From the NCBI GenBank assembly GCA_018239845.1, contig JAFEGO010000073.1, forward strand, positions 62,001 through 126,000: 64,000 nt of DNA, in the 5' to 3' direction. This document shows positions 51,617 through 64,000 of this stretch, piece after piece. Source of the stretch: Verrucomicrobiota bacterium. GTDB taxonomy: Bacteria > Verrucomicrobiota > Verrucomicrobiia > Opitutales > Opitutaceae. The position numbers and the translations under genes were made by a program. Every line of letters begins with the position of its first letter. Positions within the stretch are counted from its first letter, which is position 1. Below the pieces are notes generated by a model. It made no database searches and was not told the DNA's origin. It was given only the letters and a program-made list of their open reading frames with translations.

Positions 51617-53992
51617 ATGAATCCGCTTCAGGAATACGTCCCGGTGTCGTACGCCGGCTACCGCGCCGACCGGCGGGGCGCGAGCGTCTGGCCGCAGGCG
51701 ACACCCAGGTACCGATGGGAGGAGCTGACGGCGATCCGCACGGCGCGGCGGGCGGATCGGAGCGGTTTTGAGACGCTCCTGGTCTTTCAGGCGGGGCGGA
51801 AGTGGCAGCTGGGCGGAGCGAGGGCCTTCAGCTTCGGCCACAGCCTGGGGCGCTACGCGGAAGTGCTCGCCCTGGCCTGCGCGGGCGCGCCGGCCTCGGC
51901 AAAAATCGACGAACTGACGCGTGAGATTGCCGAGTGGGGGCCGCGCGCGGTGCGCACCCGGCTCAGGGCGGAGGCCGGCCGGCTGTATTCCGCCGATGAC
52001 CTCATGCAGCAGGCGCGCAACCATCGCGCCTGGCTGGAGCCAAACAAGGCGCTCAAGGCCACCGAGGCGGCCTTGCAACGCGAGCCCGGCCACCGGGCCG
52101 CCCTGAAACTGCGGCTGCAGCTGCTGCTGGAATCGGCGTCCGGCCGGGACAAGCCGCTCGCGGCGGCCCGTCGGTGGCTTGAGGCCAGCCCGCAGGAGGC
52201 GGAGGCGCAGAGCGTTATTTTTGGCCTTGGCTTGGATGCAAACGATCCCGCGACAGCCGAGCCGGCCTTCGCGTGGCTGAGGGAACATCCGGACGATCTC
52301 CGGCTGGCCTTCGCTCTTTCCGGATTTCATTTCCGGCGCAAGGCGTACGCGCAGGCTGTGGCCGCCTTGGAAAGCGCCCGGCCCGCCGCAGATGATGCCG
52401 ATGCCCCGGAGGCGTTGCGCCGGCAGATTGAGTTTATCCGACGCTACGCCGCGGGCGGGCGATACCGCGCCTGGTATCAGACAAAAAAGTGGACCCTCTT
52501 GGTGCTGCCATGGGTCTTCCTCGCCCTCTTCGTGGCGATCAAGCTCGCGGCGGCTTATCACTGGTGGGAGCGCCGCCATCCGGCGCCGCCCACCCCGGCG
52601 CTGCGGGAGGAATTAGGCCGGGTGCGGGAAAAACTGGCCGCCATGGAGCGCGAGATGCAGGAGTTGACCGGCTTGGTCTCCGGGGAATTTCCTGCCTTGA
52701 AGAAACGCGCCGACGCAGGTGAGGCGGCGGCGCAATATACGGTAGCGGATCGCTATTTCGATGGCAGTTTAGGCGCGCCCAAGGATGAAGCTGCCGGCCT
52801 CCGGTACCTCGAACTGGCAGCCGCACAGCATTACCTCCATGCGGTCCGCGATCTGGCGGACCGGCTCGATGAATCCATCCAGGCCGACGACCGGGCGCGC
52901 GCGATCCGCTTGTATGAGGAGGCGGCCCGGCTCGGTTCAGGGCGGGCCGCCGCGCTTCTGGCGCGACGTTACCATGAAGGGAAAGGCGTGGAGAAGAATC
53001 CGGCCAAGGGCTTCGCGTGGTCCGAGCAAGGCGCGGCGAACGGAAACGTGGATGCCATGGAACTGGCCGGCTGGGCCCTGGAAAGGGGCGAAGGCGTGGA
53101 GAAAAACCGGCCGCGGGCCCTGGAGTACTATCGGCGGGCCGCAGCCAAAAACAGCGCCTGGGCTGCGGAGCGGCTGGTGGCGGGGCTGTACCGGCCGAAC
53201 GCGACTGGCGATGAACTGAACGAGTGTTGGAAATGGACCCTGGCGGGGGCGAAGGACGGCTCGAAGGAACTGCGCCGGTTCATGGCGGGGGGCATCATCG
53301 TAGCGGGCAACATTGTCACCGAGCAGGAACGGCGGCAGGCGTTTGAGTGGACGCGTGAATCCGCCGAAGCGGGAGAGGCTGAAGGCGAGGGCTGGCTCAG
53401 CCAGTTTTACTGGCTGGGAATCGCCGTGCCCCAGGACCAGCGCAAAGCCGTCGAGTGGCTCGCCAAGGCGGCGGCGCAGAAACATGCCCCGTCGCTGCAA
53501 CTGCTCGCCGAGTGCCAGGCCTTTGGGGTCGCCGTGCCGCAGGATCTGACGGCGGCGCGCGCCAACCGGGCCGTGCTGGCCGCCGAGTTGAAAGGGGAGG
53601 AGAAACGCCTGGGCGAACTGGATCAGCTGCTGGAGATCGCGGCCAAGCCCTCGCCACCGGTGAAACCCGGCGGGGATCAGCCGGCCCGCGCGATCTGGCG
53701 GCGGGGCCCGCGGTATCCCGAGGTGCTCCGGCGGGAGGGGGTGACGGGCGAGGCCGTGGTGGAGTTTTACGTGAATGAGGACGGCTTCACCCGCGACCTG
53801 AAGGTCGTGCGCGCCAGCCGCCCGGAGTTCGGGTACGCGGCGGTCAACGCGCTGTCCTTCTGGCGGTTTGAGCCGGCGGTGGAGCAGGGCGTGCGCGTCA
53901 GGCGGCTCCACCAGCAGTTGCTGACCTTCACCCTCAACGATGATCCCGAGCCGGCGGCGAAGCAGGCCCCGGCCGGGAAAAATGGTAATTAA
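51617..53992 (+). CDS. Sel1-repeat protein with C-terminal TonB domain
   Basis: A 791-residue membrane protein that combines regions rarely joined. Residues 1-275 are soluble and presumably cytoplasmic, with a helical TPR-like stretch (NKALKATEAALQREPGHRAA). One transmembrane helix lies at about 295-312 (LLVLPWVFLALFVAIKLAAA). A short coiled coil follows, then Sel1 repeats of 36 residues (for example AAARLGSGRAAALLARRYHEG-type, DAMELAGWALERGEGVEKNR and WLSQFYWLGIAVPQDQRKAV), and finally a TonB_C domain (RYPEVLRREGVTGEAVVEFY, ASRPEFGYAAVNALSFWRFE). The TonB domain would face the periplasm and contact outer-membrane receptors or another partner. No ExbB/ExbD genes are near. It is a distant relative of the multi-TonB_C family at 58-64 kb. 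Confidence 0.8.
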   Translation: MNPLQEYVPVSYAGYRADRRGASVWPQATPRYRWEELTAIRTARRADRSGFETLLVFQAGRKWQLGGARAFSFGHSLGRYAEVLALACAGAPASAKIDELTREIAEWGPRAVRTRLRAEAGRLYSADDLMQQARNHRAWLEPNKALKATEAALQREPGHRAALKLRLQLLLESASGRDKPLAAARRWLEASPQEAEAQSVIFGLGLDANDPATAEPAFAWLREHPDDLRLAFALSGFHFRRKAYAQAVAALESARPAADDADAPEALRRQIEFIRRYAAGGRYRAWYQTKKWTLLVLPWVFLALFVAIKLAAAYHWWERRHPAPPTPALREELGRVREKLAAMEREMQELTGLVSGEFPALKKRADAGEAAAQYTVADRYFDGSLGAPKDEAAGLRYLELAAAQHYLHAVRDLADRLDESIQADDRARAIRLYEEAARLGSGRAAALLARRYHEGKGVEKNPAKGFAWSEQGAANGNVDAMELAGWALERGEGVEKNRPRALEYYRRAAAKNSAWAAERLVAGLYRPNATGDELNECWKWTLAGAKDGSKELRRFMAGGIIVAGNIVTEQERRQAFEWTRESAEAGEAEGEGWLSQFYWLGIAVPQDQRKAVEWLAKAAAQKHAPSLQLLAECQAFGVAVPQDLTAARANRAVLAAELKGEEKRLGELDQLLEIAAKPSPPVKPGGDQPARAIWRRGPRYPEVLRREGVTGEAVVEFYVNEDGFTRDLKVVRASRPEFGYAAVNALSFWRFEPAVEQGVRVRRLHQQLLTFTLNDDPEPAAKQAPAGKNGN

Positions 53993-57950: not shown

Positions 57951-58406
57951 ATGAAAGTCTCCTTCACCACCAAGGAATACGCGCGCCTCCTCGAACTCGT
58001 GCATCTCGGCCTCTGGGTCGCGGGCGCGCGGCCCGACGATCCCGCGACGATGCCCGAGCGCTACGCGGATCTCACGCAGAAAGTCCTCGGGCTGGCCGAG
58101 CCCTTCGGTTGCGCGGACCTCGTGGAGGCCGACGTGAACGGCGAGTATTTCCTCAACGAAAAACTCACCGGCGGCGTGGCGCAGGAGAAGCTCGACGCCT
58201 ACGCCGAGGATGTCTTCTGGGGCGAACTCGTGGCGCGCCTCGCGGGCCGCGACCTGCGCGCCGAGATCGGCGCCGAGGCCGCCGAGGCGGAGGAGCTGGA
58301 GCCGCAGCACGAAGTCGCTCTGACGGAACACGAGGACACCTACTGGCGCGAGTTCGAAGCCCACGGTATCGACCACCTCGTCGTACTGCGCGGCGGACGG
58401 GGTTGA
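57951..58406 (+). CDS. Conserved-looking hypothetical protein, acidic
   Basis: A 151-residue acidic soluble protein that I do not recognise. It begins MKVSFTTKEYARLLELVHLG with LWVAGARPDDPATMPERYAD, and later ADLVEADVNGEYFLNEKLTG, LDAYAEDVFWGELVARLAGR, and a long helix rich in Glu and Ala (AEAAEAEELEPQHEVALTEH), ending REFEAHGIDHLVVLRGG. No signal or membrane segment. It is on the same strand, 68 bases after the AKR gene. The upstream open frame is a shadow of that gene; this Met is the sensible start. Confidence 0.7.
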   Translation: MKVSFTTKEYARLLELVHLGLWVAGARPDDPATMPERYADLTQKVLGLAEPFGCADLVEADVNGEYFLNEKLTGGVAQEKLDAYAEDVFWGELVARLAGRDLRAEIGAEAAEAEELEPQHEVALTEHEDTYWREFEAHGIDHLVVLRGGRG

Positions 58407-58477
58407 GCGGCGTATCCAAATCCCGGTGTGGTAAACGCTCCGATTGACCCGGAGCACGGCGCTGGTTGGCTCGACGG

Positions 58478-60217
58478 ATGCATTCCCCCTCCCTGGTCCG
58501 GCGCGGTGGCTTGATGGTGTTTTTTCTTGGTACGCTGCTGCGTCTCGCTGCACAGGATGCCGTGGTGGCGCCCCTGGTATGGCTGAAGCCGCAGGATGCG
58601 CCGGATACGCTGCCGGTGCTGCAAAAGGTGCCGAGCTTCTCCTTCCCCTCGGAATTGGCGCAGACCAAGGAAATCGGCTACGCGTTCGCCGTTACGTATA
58701 TAGACGAAACGGGCAAGCGCCTCGGTTTCGCCCCGTTCGCCAACTTGGAAGCTTATGTCGACCCCGCTTACGACGGCATAGAGCAAATGAGCTTCGCCCC
58801 CGGCCGGCGCGCGGGTCAGCCGGTCCTGACCGGCACGCAGCTGGCGGTCATCTTCAACCCTAAGTCAGCCGCCGTCGATGCGCCTGACGCCACGCCGCGG
58901 TTGCTGGCCGTGACGGCCGTTCGCATTAAAAAACCTGATACGGATGATGCCTTGGGGGGCTACGGGAAGTGGGTTTATGCCGATGTTTCCGTAGATGAAA
59001 TCGGTCGTGTGACGGCCGTGAGGAATGTGGCGCCCGAATGGGCGGAGGCCTTCCTCAAGACCGCCCGCGAATGGCGTTTTGCTCCGGCGCGGCGCGCGGG
59101 GCACCCGCTGGCAGCGGAGGTTCACGTGCCTTTTCTGCTGGCCGACTGGGGTGATTGGATCTCCGGCACAGGCAAGGAGAGTCCACCTGAGGCCATTTCT
59201 AAGATCTCGCCGGTCTACCCCCTGTCCATGGAGCGAACAGGTATAACCGGGGCGGTCGATATCACCTTCACCGTGGACCGGGAAGGGCGCCCAAAAGACA
59301 TGTGCATAAAACGTTCGCTGAATGCCGCCTTTGACGATGCCGCGGTGGATGGGCTCCGGCTCTGGAAATTTAAACCGGCCTTGCAGGACGGCGTGCCGGT
59401 GGAACGGCGCATGAGCCAGAGACTGACCTTCGGAATGCAATATGCCGCCGCCCGCCGCAAAGCTGGGCTGGATCTATCGGCCAAGGGCAATGCCGGCCTC
59501 GGGCTTCCGGGGCCGCGCAGCCAAGCGGCCCCGGCTTATCCCCGGGAGGTGCTGGGCGAGGAGGTGAAGGGCGATGTCACGGCTCCGCAGATGGTTGGCC
59601 ACGCGACCCCGGTTTATCCTTATGCGCTTTTGCGCGACCGGGAGACGGGCAAGGCCAGGGTCAGATGCGTCATCGGCGAGACGGGCGAGATCGTCTCATC
59701 GCAGGTGGTTGAGGCCACCCGGCCGGAGTTCGGCCAGGCCTTGCAAGCCGCGGCGGAGATTTTCGAGTACCGGCCGGCGCTCAAGGCCGGCCGGCCGATG
59801 CCGGTGGAAATCACCTTTGAGCAGAAGTTTTCCCTGAACGACCTCTATGAAGTGGTGACGTCGGCGGACAAGGATATGCTCAAGCGGGAAAGCAAGCATC
59901 CCGACACCATCCTCACGCCGGAGCGGCTCGATAAGCCGTTGAATCGGATCGTCCGTCGGTCCGTCCAGTTGCCGACGTCGATGGATCAAAGGACCGCGAG
60001 GGGCGAGGCCGTGGTGGAGATCCTCATTGATGAGGGCGGACATGTGCGCCTGCCGCGGGTCGTCTCCGCGAGCCAGGAGGCCTTGGGCTATGCGGCCGTG
60101 CAAGCCGTGACCAGCTGGAGGTATGCGCCGCCCAAGGCGCAGGGGAAACCCGCCGTGGTACGCTTGCGCGTGCCGTTTGTCTTCCAATCGTCTGTGCCGA
60201 TTCCGGCAGATATTTGA
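58478..60217 (+). CDS. Secreted protein with repeated TonB_C-like domains, copy 1
   Basis: A 579-residue protein. An N-terminal hydrophobic segment (RRGGLMVFFLGTLLRLAAQD) looks like a signal peptide. The rest is four clear TonB C-terminal-like domains and a weaker N-terminal fifth: FPSELAQTKEIGYAFAVTYI (about 50-120), DVSVDEIGRVTAVRNVAPEW to FLKTAREWRFAPARR (about 165-210), KISPVYPLSMERTGITGAVD (about 245-320), GHATPVYPYALLRDRETGKA (about 370-450) and QLPTSMDQRTARGEAVVEIL (about 495-575). Each ends in an aromatic-Pro-Ala core such as WKFKPALQDG or FEYRPALKAG. There is no transmembrane helix before the first domain as in true TonB. The role is unknown; domains may bind TonB boxes or peptidoglycan. 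Start is the ATG; a TTG four codons earlier is possible. Confidence 0.8.
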   Translation: MHSPSLVRRGGLMVFFLGTLLRLAAQDAVVAPLVWLKPQDAPDTLPVLQKVPSFSFPSELAQTKEIGYAFAVTYIDETGKRLGFAPFANLEAYVDPAYDGIEQMSFAPGRRAGQPVLTGTQLAVIFNPKSAAVDAPDATPRLLAVTAVRIKKPDTDDALGGYGKWVYADVSVDEIGRVTAVRNVAPEWAEAFLKTAREWRFAPARRAGHPLAAEVHVPFLLADWGDWISGTGKESPPEAISKISPVYPLSMERTGITGAVDITFTVDREGRPKDMCIKRSLNAAFDDAAVDGLRLWKFKPALQDGVPVERRMSQRLTFGMQYAAARRKAGLDLSAKGNAGLGLPGPRSQAAPAYPREVLGEEVKGDVTAPQMVGHATPVYPYALLRDRETGKARVRCVIGETGEIVSSQVVEATRPEFGQALQAAAEIFEYRPALKAGRPMPVEITFEQKFSLNDLYEVVTSADKDMLKRESKHPDTILTPERLDKPLNRIVRRSVQLPTSMDQRTARGEAVVEILIDEGGHVRLPRVVSASQEALGYAAVQAVTSWRYAPPKAQGKPAVVRLRVPFVFQSSVPIPADI

Positions 60218-60328
60218 AGATAATCATCCAGCGCGCCGGGCAGCGCGCGGCCGACATTGAGCGGGCGTATCCAGCCGGTGACGAACGCGCCGGTTGACGC
60301 GTGGCGAGCCGCTGGTTGTCTCACTGCC

Positions 60329-61999
60329 ATGCTTTTCCCCTCCCTGATCCGGCGCGGTGGTTTGCCGGCGGTTTTTATCGGCATGGTCCTGCGGCTCGCG
60401 GCGCAGGATGCGACCTTGGCTCCGCTCGATTGGCTGGAGGCAAAAGATGCGCCGGACACCCTGCCGGCTTTGCGGAACGCACCGAAGTTTTCCTTTCCCT
60501 CGGAATTGAAGCAAACGAAGGAGATCGGCTACGCGATCGCCGACACCTATCTCGATGAAGCTGGCAAACGGCTTGGTTTCTACCCGGTGGCCAACCTGCC
60601 GGTTTACGAGGAGCCTGCCTATGCGGGTATCAAGGAATTGAAATTTTCGCCCGCCAAACGGGCCGGTCAGCCGGTCAATGCCGCCATCCAGCTGGCTGTG
60701 ATATACAATCCCAAGTCCGCCGCCGTGGACGGGCCCGACACCACTCCGCGCTTGCTGGCCGTGACAGTCGTGCGGGTCAAATTCTCCGACGCCTTGAAAA
60801 ACGGCGTGCAAAAATGGGTTTACGCGGACGTCACCGTGGATGAGGGCGGACGCGTGACGGCCGTGAAGAATGTGGCGCCGGAGTGGTCGGAGGCTTTTTT
60901 TAACGCGGCCCGGGAGTGGCGGTTTGCCCCGGCGCGGCGCGCGGGCCAGCCGGTCGCGGCAGAGGTGCATGTGCCTTTTCTCCTGACCACCCGTGGCTCT
61001 GTGCTCGGGCAGGTCCCCGGCAAGGGCAAGACCGTGCCGCCGGAAGTGACTTCGCAGACTGCGCCGACCTATCCCGAGGAGATGCGCCGGTCGGGCCTGC
61101 GCGGGGATGTCGTGATCGAATTCACGATCGACCGGGAGGGCCGGCTGATCGATCCCCTCGTGAAAAGTTCGTTGCACCCCGCCTTTGAAGGGCCGGCGCT
61201 CGATGCCTTGCGGCGGTGGAAATTCAAGCCGGGCTGGCGGGACGGCATACCGGCGGACACGCGCATGGTCCAAGCCTTCAGTTTCAGGATGGAGGAGTTT
61301 GGCGGCGGCGATACCGGCTTCAGCGTCAAGGCCGACAAAAAAACCGGCATCACGCCCCCGGGGCCGATCGCCCGGATGGTCCCGGTCTATCCCTATGCGC
61401 TGCTGCGCGACAAGGTGAAGGGCAAGGCCAAGGTCGTCATGGTGGTGGGGGAAAACGGCAAGGTGGTCTCATCGCGCGTGGTGGAGGCCAGCCGGCCGGA
61501 ATTCGGCCTGGCCCTCCAGGCGGCCACCGAGGTTTTCGAATTTTCCCCGGCGCTCAAGGATGGCCGGCCGGTCCCGGTCGAGCTCACCCATGAGCAGGAT
61601 TTCTCCCTGAGTTATATGGATGAGGTGGTGACGGAGGCGGACCAGGATATGGTCAAGCGGGAGGGCAAGCAGCCCGGCACGATCCTCATGGCGAAGCAGC
61701 TCGGTGCGCCGCTGCATCCCATCGTCCGCCGGGCCCCGCGGTTTCCGACGTCGGTGGATGAAAAGATCACCGCGGGCGAAGCCCTCGTGGAAATCATCAT
61801 CGATGAGGAGGGCCACGTGCGGCTGCCCCGGATCGTCTCCGCGAGTCAGGAGGCCTTCGGCTATGCGGCGGCTCAGGCGGTGGCCGCCTGGCGGTTTGAT
61901 CCGCCAAAAGCCCTGCTGGGCCGCACCGTCGCGGTGCGCGTCCGCGTGCCCTTTGTTTTTAAGCAGACCACGTCGGTCCCGGCCGACACCAAAAAATGA
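60329..61999 (+). CDS. Secreted protein with repeated TonB_C-like domains, copy 2
   Basis: A 556-residue paralogue of the preceding gene. The signal region reads MLFPSLIRRGGLPAVFIGMV against MHSPSLVRRGG in copy 1, and the domain order is the same: FPSELKQTKEIGYAIADTYL, DVTVDEGGRVTAVKNVAPEW, QTAPTYPEEMRRSGLRGDVV, RMVPVYPYALLRDKVKGKAK and RFPTSVDEKITAGEALVEII. Even the upstream bases match copy 1 (GCTGGTTG shortly before the ATG; CGGCGCGGTGG shortly after), so the pair arose by tandem duplication that included the control region. Its stop overlaps the start of an enolase-superfamily gene (ATGA, 61996-61999), which implies co-translation. Translation starts at the ATG before LFPSL rather than the long upstream frame. 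Confidence 0.82.
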   Translation: MLFPSLIRRGGLPAVFIGMVLRLAAQDATLAPLDWLEAKDAPDTLPALRNAPKFSFPSELKQTKEIGYAIADTYLDEAGKRLGFYPVANLPVYEEPAYAGIKELKFSPAKRAGQPVNAAIQLAVIYNPKSAAVDGPDTTPRLLAVTVVRVKFSDALKNGVQKWVYADVTVDEGGRVTAVKNVAPEWSEAFFNAAREWRFAPARRAGQPVAAEVHVPFLLTTRGSVLGQVPGKGKTVPPEVTSQTAPTYPEEMRRSGLRGDVVIEFTIDREGRLIDPLVKSSLHPAFEGPALDALRRWKFKPGWRDGIPADTRMVQAFSFRMEEFGGGDTGFSVKADKKTGITPPGPIARMVPVYPYALLRDKVKGKAKVVMVVGENGKVVSSRVVEASRPEFGLALQAATEVFEFSPALKDGRPVPVELTHEQDFSLSYMDEVVTEADQDMVKREGKQPGTILMAKQLGAPLHPIVRRAPRFPTSVDEKITAGEALVEIIIDEEGHVRLPRIVSASQEAFGYAAAQAVAAWRFDPPKALLGRTVAVRVRVPFVFKQTTSVPADTKK

Positions 62000-63414
62000 T
62001 CACCCTCCGCGAAGTCACCCTCCACGCCCAGCCGCTCAAGGCGCGCATGCCGTTTCGCTACGGCATCGCCACGATGACTGAGGTCACGCACATCATCGTG
62101 CGCGGCACCTGGGAAATCGATGGCCAGACCCATGAGGGCCTCGCCGCCGACCACCTGCCGCCGAAGTGGTTTACCAAGGACCCCGACCGGCCGCTCGGCG
62201 AAGAGGTCGAGGAGATGCTCGCGGTCATCCGCGCGGCGATCGCCCACGCCCGGCAGATCAAGGCGGCGACGCCCTTTGCCTTCTGGCGCGAACTCTACGC
62301 CGCCCAGGGTGCCTGGGGCGCTGCACAAAAGCTGCCGCCGCTGCTCGTGCACTTTGGCACGTCGCTCGTTGAGCGCTCGCTGGTCGATGCGTTTTGCCGG
62401 GCGAAGGGCACGGCGTTTCCCGCGGCGCTGCGGGAGAATCTCTTCGGCCTTGAGCTCGGCGCGGTGCACGCGCCGCTCGCGGGCTCGGTTCCGCGCGACT
62501 GGCTGCCGGCCGTGCCGCCGGCCGAGGTGTTTGCGCGGCACACCGTGGGGTTGTCCGACTATCTCACGGACGCTGAAATCCCCGCCGACGAGCGCGTGGC
62601 CGACGGGCTGCCGCAGTCGCTCGTGGCGTGCATCCGGTTTTATGGGCTCCGGCATTTTAAACTGAAAATCAACGGCGACGAGCCTCGCGACCGCGCGCGG
62701 CTCGCGCAGATGGCGCGCATCTTCGCGGCGGAGTGCGGCGGCGACTACGCGTTTTCGCTCGATGGCAACGAGAGCTTCAAGGCCGTCGCGGTCTTCGCCG
62801 ACTACGTGCGCGGCCTGCGCGCGGGAGCGGGCGACGCAGCCTTCTGGGCGAAGTTGCTTTTCATCGAGCAGCCGTGGCACCGCAGCGTGGCGCTCTCGCC
62901 GGCCATCGGCGAGCTGGCGCGCGCGTGGCCCGACCGGCCGCCGGTCATCATCGACGAATCCGACGGCGAGATTTCCAGCCTGCCGACCGCCCTCGCGCTC
63001 GGCTACGCGGGCACGAGCCACAAGAACTGCAAGGGCATCTTCAAGGGCATCGCCAACGCCTGCCTGCTCGCGCAGCGCCGTGCGGCCGGCCTGCCTGCGA
63101 TGCTGAGCGGTGAGGACCTGAGCAACGTCGGCCCCGTGGCCGTGACGCAGGATCTCGCGGTGGCGGCGACGCTCGGCGCGACCAGCATCGAGCGCAACGG
63201 CCACCATTACTTCGCGGGTCTCGCGCAGTTCCCCGCCGCGGTGCAGGCGCATATGCTCGCCCACCATGGCGATCTCTTCACGCCCAGCGCGGCCGGCTGG
63301 CCGCGCCTGGATGTGCGCGGCGGCCGGCTGCATCTCGGCTCCGTGCTGCGCGCGCCCTTCGGCTGCGCGGCGGGGCTGGATCTCTCCGGCCTTGCGACGG
63401 TACCGGTGGGTTAG
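61996..63414 (+). CDS. Second enolase-superfamily enzyme, long form, function unknown
   Basis: A 472-residue member of the enolase superfamily, longer than the usual 360-400 residues and not close to the one at 54993-56066. The KxK position is in FKLKINGDEPRDRARL, the metal ligands in FSLDGNESFKAVAV, LFIEQPWHRSVAL and IIDESDGEISSLP, and a further conserved lysine in TSHKNCKGIFKGIANACLLA. The N-terminal half has a large non-barrel part (AAQGAWGAAQKLPPLLVHFG). The two lysines on opposite barrel faces suggest a muconate-lactonizing subgroup-type active site. It is translationally coupled to the TonB_C-repeat protein before it, with another such gene 116 bases after it. Cytosolic; no signal peptide. 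Confidence 0.85.
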   Translation: MITLREVTLHAQPLKARMPFRYGIATMTEVTHIIVRGTWEIDGQTHEGLAADHLPPKWFTKDPDRPLGEEVEEMLAVIRAAIAHARQIKAATPFAFWRELYAAQGAWGAAQKLPPLLVHFGTSLVERSLVDAFCRAKGTAFPAALRENLFGLELGAVHAPLAGSVPRDWLPAVPPAEVFARHTVGLSDYLTDAEIPADERVADGLPQSLVACIRFYGLRHFKLKINGDEPRDRARLAQMARIFAAECGGDYAFSLDGNESFKAVAVFADYVRGLRAGAGDAAFWAKLLFIEQPWHRSVALSPAIGELARAWPDRPPVIIDESDGEISSLPTALALGYAGTSHKNCKGIFKGIANACLLAQRRAAGLPAMLSGEDLSNVGPVAVTQDLAVAATLGATSIERNGHHYFAGLAQFPAAVQAHMLAHHGDLFTPSAAGWPRLDVRGGRLHLGSVLRAPFGCAAGLDLSGLATVPVG

Positions 63415-63530
63415 GATGGAAGACACCGGGATCGCGCTGCCGGCGGAGGCCGATCCCGCCGCGGTGGCGCGGTCCGTATCGTGACGAAGACAGGGATTGA
63501 TCCGGAGCTGCGGCCTGTATCAATTTTTAC

Positions 63531-64000
63531 ATGCTGTTTCCTCTGCTCCCCCGACGACATGCAACGGTTTTTCTGGCCGCCCTGCTGGCGGTGGCCGGCG
63601 GGCCCCGGGCAATGGGGGCTGATCCGGCTCCGGCCAAGATCGTGGCGGACGGCCCGGCGATGTTGCGCACCTGGGAGCCGCCGGCGCTGCCCGCCGGGAT
63701 GGCGAAAGACGAGCTCCCGCCGTCGCCGGTTGTGCGCGCCATCATTGATGCGACCGGAAAAGTCACCGCGGCCCGGATACCCGAGCCGGGTGAGGCCCGG
63801 TTTGACGATGCGGCGCTGGCAGCGGTGAAGACCTGGATCTTCGCCCCGGCGCTCGCCGATGGCCAGCCGGTGCCCTGCTGCCTCGACATCGAGGTGAAGT
63901 TTGCCGACCAAAAGGCGCGGAAAAAAGGGCAGCTTCAGATGCCAATGTTCGATCTTTCGCCGCGCACGGCTTCGGCCGAGCCGCTGAATTCACCCGCGGG
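63531..64000 (+). CDS. TonB_C-domain secreted protein, copy 3 (5' part)
   Basis: An open frame of 156 codons that runs off the right edge. It starts MLFPLLPRRHATVFLAALLA, like copy 2, and after a signal peptide (cleavage near AMGADPAPAK) shows one TonB_C-like domain: PSPVVRAIIDATGKVTAARI, then FDDAALAAVKTWIFAPALAD and GQPVPCCLDIEVKF. It appears more diverged than copies 1 and 2, lacking their first domain block. The rest of the protein is not visible. The 116-base spacer before it holds no recognised signal. Confidence 0.7.
   Translation, partial: MLFPLLPRRHATVFLAALLAVAGGPRAMGADPAPAKIVADGPAMLRTWEPPALPAGMAKDELPPSPVVRAIIDATGKVTAARIPEPGEARFDDAALAAVKTWIFAPALADGQPVPCCLDIEVKFADQKARKKGQLQMPMFDLSPRTASAEPLNSPA

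Follow-up and report, generated by a model that had tools for sequence, protein, structure and literature searches.

Tandem TonB C-terminal domains on putatively secreted proteins of Opitutaceae

We report a family of proteins in Opitutaceae in which three to five TonB C-terminal (TonB_C) domains are strung one behind the other after a signal-type N-terminus, with no features of a membrane anchor. On the whole, we tentatively read these arrays as periplasmic, unanchored and multivalent binding proteins, which would keep the TonB C-terminal fold and work without the Ton motor. TonB itself has one C-terminal domain only; its membrane helix is uncleaved and carries a conserved His, its linker is long and often proline-rich, and ExbBD is its motor. 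A TonB domain at the end of a protein usually counts as proof that the protein is an energy transducer, and its carriers are named TonB by automatic annotation. Since the domain is found here strung on apparently secreted proteins with no visible anchor and no motor nearby, and also as the tail of sensor-like proteins and lipoproteins, the equation of TonB_C with a Ton system is unsafe in this phylum. The domain seems to be reused as a multi-headed binding module, and the arrays provide naturally occurring free TonB_C units for asking what the isolated domain binds.

Array genes and the fold of their units

The window, i.e. the whole stretch of 64,000 nucleotides analysed, corresponds to bases 62001-126000 of its contig in a draft genome of 4.23 Mb, and its array genes are listed in Table 1. 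The sequence-only reading of this DNA had proposed three adjacent genes with four to five serial TonB_C-like domains each. Its start positions for the three genes are correct, and the search with the profile PF03544 (TonB_C) finds the domain in copy 1 (1.8e-43, four significant stretches), in copy 2 (4.5e-48, five stretches) and in the in-window part of copy 3 alone (3.5e-9). A profile made from units of this genome detects five of them in copy 1, five in copy 2 and four in copy 3, and in copies 1 and 2 the first two units score 23-30 bits while the remaining units score 83-92 bits. Above the Pfam cut-off, the array proteins match no family besides TonB_C, and LysM, SPOR and OmpA-like wall-binding parts are absent. 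As for the adjacency, it stands for copies 1 and 2 and fails for copies 2 and 3, which are separated by a 472-aa gene at 61996-63414. This gene is enolase-like by eye, has no Pfam match, and shares the four bases ATGA with the stop of copy 2. Scans of the locus for terminators and promoters gave numbers close to chance.

Table 1. Array genes, their units and adjoining elements (positions within the window)
Feature	Position	Strand	Description	Basis
Copy 1	58478..60217	+	type A array, 579 aa, five TonB_C units	Pfam, own-unit profile
Copy 1 signal peptide	58478..58552	+	predicted cleavage between LAA and QD, before Q26	inspection, Q26 conservation, hydropathy
Copy 1 unit e5	58643..58855	+	weak TonB_C, 24 bits	own-unit profile
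Copy 1 unit e4	58976..59134	+	weak TonB_C, 23 bits	own-unit profile
Copy 1 unit e3	59210..59431	+		own-unit profile
Copy 1 unit e2	59609..59836	+		own-unit profile
Copy 1 unit e1	59972..60187	+	C-terminal unit, 'LPR.vSA' type	own-unit profile
Copy 2	60329..61999	+	type A array, 556 aa, five TonB_C units	Pfam, AlphaFold2 model
Copy 2 signal peptide	60329..60403	+	predicted cleavage between LAA and QD
Copy 2 unit e5	60494..60700	+	weak; beta-beta-alpha-beta	model
Copy 2 unit e4	60791..60979	+	weak	own-unit profile, model
Copy 2 unit e3	61061..61288	+	matches TonB CTD 6i97_D, Z 12.8	model
Copy 2 unit e2	61382..61609	+		own-unit profile
Copy 2 unit e1	61733..61963	+		own-unit profile
Copy 3	63531..64000, on to window-equivalent 64928	+	type B array, 465 aa, four units
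Copy 3 first unit (e4)	63684..63902	+		own-unit profile
Upstream DNA of copy 1	58387..58477	+	repeated before copy 2
Upstream DNA of copy 2	60244..60328	+	repeated before copy 1
Small gene	57951..58406	+	without signal-like start, no Pfam family; beside arrays in seven genomes

Structure prediction had been named as the check on whether the units might have some other fold. AlphaFold2, run with family alignments, modelled copy 2 at a mean pLDDT of 80 and copy 3 at 83. Confidence is low at the N-terminus, and in both models the pattern strand-strand-helix-strand is repeated in all units, the weak ones included. The third unit of copy 2 matches the FoxA-bound Pseudomonas TonB C-terminal domain (6i97_D) over 89 residues with an rmsd of 1.3 (Z as in Table 1), and the second unit of copy 3 matches the same chain over 89 residues with Z 12.3 and rmsd 2.2. 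The best-matching units dominate the lists of structure matches, and for the other units the fold is read from sequence and secondary-structure pattern. In the models, then, the unit is a TonB C-terminal fold. Two other candidates were rejected. TolA identity is disfavoured because TonB chains mostly reach Z 8-13 against the models of copies 2 and 3 vs 4.5-6.7 for TolA chains, and because the contig has no TolQ/ExbB-type match. Complement C3/C5-type chains, found by Foldseek with the whole model, align with a TM of about 0.1 and an rmsd of about 30, and are an artefact of long multi-domain chains.

Export, anchor and comparison with known systems

The N-termini of the array proteins look like cleavable signal peptides. 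In the nine type A proteins, a hydrophobic stretch is followed in most cases by a site with LxA before and Q[DE] after the predicted cut, and Q26 is invariant in all nine. The His of the TonB membrane helix is missing from the hydrophobic stretch in 23 of 24 array proteins, the exception being one type B protein, and the hydropathy of these 24 proteins reveals no second or internal hydrophobic segment. The first unit is preceded by 18-47 residues, apart from one protein with 146, in which the first unit goes undetected, while both canonical TonBs of the window's genome have the His and 119-122 residues before their domain. No ExbB or ExbD gene lies on the array contig. Genome-wide there are five ExbB-like and seven ExbD-like genes, all on other contigs and some of them adjoined by canonical TonB and TolA genes; there are also 18 TonB-dependent receptor plugs, the closest about 27 kb beyond the window end. 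These results are in accordance with the earlier proposal of secreted proteins with no TonB-type anchor and no ExbB/ExbD nearby. As far as the sequences indicate, the array proteins would be periplasmic, and since they show no anchor, no proline-rich arm to span the periplasm and no ExbBD motor on their contig, the transmission of force as in TonB would be impossible.

The N-terminus is also where an anchored variant of TonB has to be weighed, in which the hydrophobic stretch would stay in the inner membrane, the array would replace the proline arm, and a remote ExbBD would be the motor. The ExbB-like and ExbD-like genes do exceed the TonB and TolA genes beside them, and such remote motors might act on genes far away. 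However, a good signal peptidase site, which includes the invariant Q26, comes after the short hydrophobic stretch, the membrane-helix His is kept in a single type B protein, and no motor gene is nearby. Based on the His, the stretch and the linker length, this variant is set aside as very improbable.

Among known systems, TonB (PF03544 / TIGR01352) shares with the arrays the fold and sequence of the C-terminal domain; unlike TonB, the arrays have three to five of these domains and have no uncleaved His helix, no long linker and no ExbBD on the contig. The M56 (BlaR1-type) peptidases also carry TonB_C outside the Ton system, as a periplasmic tail, but they are membrane proteases with a single such domain. 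In the MxcH-type receptors with an extra TonB_C (NF038079), the domain is likewise not on a TonB, and the array units align with roughly the first 90 positions of NF038079; the arrays, however, have neither plug nor barrel and reach a total of 93-130 against a cut-off of 925. With the domain of GltG/GltJ and AgmX/PglI (NF033768), the arrays score 49.6, 62.4 and 55.6 bits, above the curated cut-off of 40. In the gliding of Myxococcus, TonB_C domains serve outside nutrient import, with GltG and GltJ having a transmembrane helix and the AglRQS motor (PMC5349195), whereas the arrays have no membrane anchor features and no motor gene nearby. The TonB-type C-terminal domain of FusB binds its ferredoxin substrate and not a TonB box (PMC13253070, PMC7593965). 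FusB matches the model of copy 2 in structure with Z 10.2, although it is an inner-membrane protein with one TonB-type domain. Gliding and ferredoxin import are the closest published cases, and both have their TonB-type domains on anchored proteins (PMC5349195, PMC13253070). A literature search, mostly outside the subscription journals, returned nothing on tandem TonB_C, TonB arrays of Opitutaceae or free TonB_C. The earlier statement that such a system had not been described agrees with this search; it does not extend to the domain, which is known and is matched by ordinary Pfam and NCBIfam models. Within the literature searched, the novelty is the architecture, and the domain is an ordinary one.

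Duplication, descent and distribution

Copies 1 and 2 had been taken as duplicates with upstream DNA in common, and the comparison bears this out. The two are 61% identical as proteins and 70% as DNA, their 100 bp of upstream DNA align with a score of 54 where the highest of 2000 shuffles is 36, and in the tree they are sisters (100/100); judged from these alignments, they are sister duplicates. Copy 3, with an identity of only about 31%, is no recent duplicate. The tree places type B proteins in a clade of seven (94/96), and on the same kind of evidence copy 3 is an older paralogue. In a tree of single units, all last units group together whatever the array type (24 rows, 97/90), and the next-to-last units have a clade of their own (24 rows, 100/93). 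Since the units group by their position from the C-terminus, the arrays were inherited whole and not rebuilt by recent duplication of units, and the order of the array is conserved across genera. The identity between orthologues climbs toward the C-terminus unit by unit, being 30, 34, 41, 43 and 49% in type A and 35, 40, 42 and 56% in type B. Moreover, the last unit has invariant residues of its own, for example P500, R501, Q516, W521 and R537 of copy 2. The two types differ in charge: without their signal peptide, the type A proteins have a neutral to basic pI (6.9-9.7), while six of the seven type B proteins are acidic (pI 5.3-5.7), with a last unit that is basic in most.

The survey of copies and neighbours in Opitutaceae genomes, proposed together with the reading, finds arrays in several genera. 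The five-unit type A occurs twice each in G000 and G007 and once each in G004, G012, G023, G027 and G034, and the four-unit type B in G000, G004, G007, G023, G027, G034 and an Opitutaceae MAG (L022), so that type B accompanies type A in six genera. In G000, G004 and G027, the A and B genes are adjacent or almost adjacent, and in G034 and G023 roughly 6 to 17 kb separate them. Three-unit forms are found in additional genera, and full-length relatives in other genera of the family. In class and phylum samples, the type A profile (E < 1e-40) detects 13 of 384 genomes and the three-unit profile (E < 1e-30) detects 14 of 387, all of them from the window's own family; a contig scan with two peptide patterns only gave 17 relatives, most of which have a single domain and come from other phyla. 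Within the sampled genomes, the arrays turned up only in Opitutaceae. At the profile cut-offs, no clear array homologue is found in the same-genus relative G001 and most sampled members of the family are likewise without one, which suggests that the function is accessory.

The conserved neighbours of the arrays are a gene for glycyl-tRNA synthetase (GlyRS), an Mpo1-like gene and the small gene of Table 1, and none of them points to an envelope pathway. The GlyRS-type gene is near the array in six genomes of the family and one MAG (L071, L073, L074, L076, L078, L079 and L022), two of these loci having been checked with Pfam. No receptor gene is found as a conserved neighbour.

Possible binding partners and rival explanations

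The TonB C-terminal fold binds by strand addition, in which a short peptide or a protein edge joins its sheet. Carried over to the arrays, the tentative reading as unanchored binding proteins would work as follows. The signal peptide would export the protein and then be removed, leaving four to five TonB C-terminal domains in a mature rod or string. By analogy with TonB, each unit may take up a peptide or protein edge as an extra beta-strand, and with several units on one chain the protein could hold one partner tightly or gather several. The most plausible partners would be peptides from the N-termini of outer-membrane proteins, or else other proteins of the envelope. The best candidate for a specific site would be the C-terminal unit, which is the most conserved and has its own invariant residues. 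Types A and B, encoded close together and unlike in charge, may cooperate. A more specific form of the idea, a motor-free scaffold in which types A and B, often encoded close together, would make a mixed complex below the outer membrane and collect proteins of the outer membrane, or peptides from their N-termini, by docking at the last unit, is in our view unlikely. Against the reading as binding proteins in general speak the conserved neighbours, which indicate no envelope pathway, and the two weak N-terminal units, which may bind nothing.

The charge and composition of the arrays bear on another kind of partner. The TonB C-terminal domain has been suggested to bind peptidoglycan, in which case the units might hold the cell wall and the array might serve as a tether or spacer. 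A secreted, unanchored and multivalent protein would suit this role, and type A is mostly basic; however, type B is mostly acidic, and the Pfam search finds none of the common wall-binding parts. We therefore regard wall binding as improbable.

It may also be asked whether the free units act as decoys or clamps, rivalling TonB for the TonB boxes and keeping the receptors shut. The TonB C-terminal fold is kept, the structure matches of the copy 2 model include TonB chains from complexes with FoxA and BtuB, and the genome has its 18 receptor plugs for such a role. The dosage of the domain argues otherwise. In 37 genomes of the family, with the receptors counted as plugs (at least 67 at the top) or as first-look candidates with the same outcome, the number of TonB_C is correlated with the number of plugs in raw form (rho 0.48, p 0.003), but the correlation disappears when genome size is controlled for (partial rho 0.05-0.13, p 0.44-0.76). 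G026 and G031 have at least 67 plugs each, yet have only 3 and 2 TonB_C units respectively. The missing relation counts weakly against a decoy role, and the lack of a conserved receptor neighbour is a further point against it. We regard this role as improbable.

The number of TonB_C does rise with genome size (rho 0.61; partial 0.46). This would fit a role as structural filler, in which this lineage freely duplicates TonB_C as a periplasmic domain and no specific ligand is bound by the arrays, which would be rods or spacers. Many unrelated TonB_C fusions in one genome and the drift of the N-terminal units are consistent with it as well. Pure filler, however, would not need array positions that stay distinct or a last unit with residues invariant across genera, and we consider this explanation rather unlikely.

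Outside the arrays, TonB_C is found in the window's genome on lipoproteins, Sel1 and ankyrin proteins, an M48 peptidase and an ECF sigma factor. A Sel1-repeat protein with a C-terminal TonB_C is encoded at 51617-53992 of the window, 4.5 kb upstream of copy 1, with a further TonB_C gene nearby. At L010 (4817-6093), three consecutive short genes each have a lipoprotein-type start and one TonB_C domain, and at L011 (2498-5005) two TonB_C domains are on an ankyrin-repeat protein. The gene at L018 (5089-6462, minus strand) joins an ECF sigma factor, a hydrophobic segment and one TonB_C, a sensor-like tail that would sit in the periplasm. In G023, a TonB_C lipoprotein gene stops 25 bp before the type B array gene, and upstream of both lies a gene (L072, 2740-4755) for an M56 (BlaR1-type) peptidase that carries TonB_C and matches STN below the threshold.
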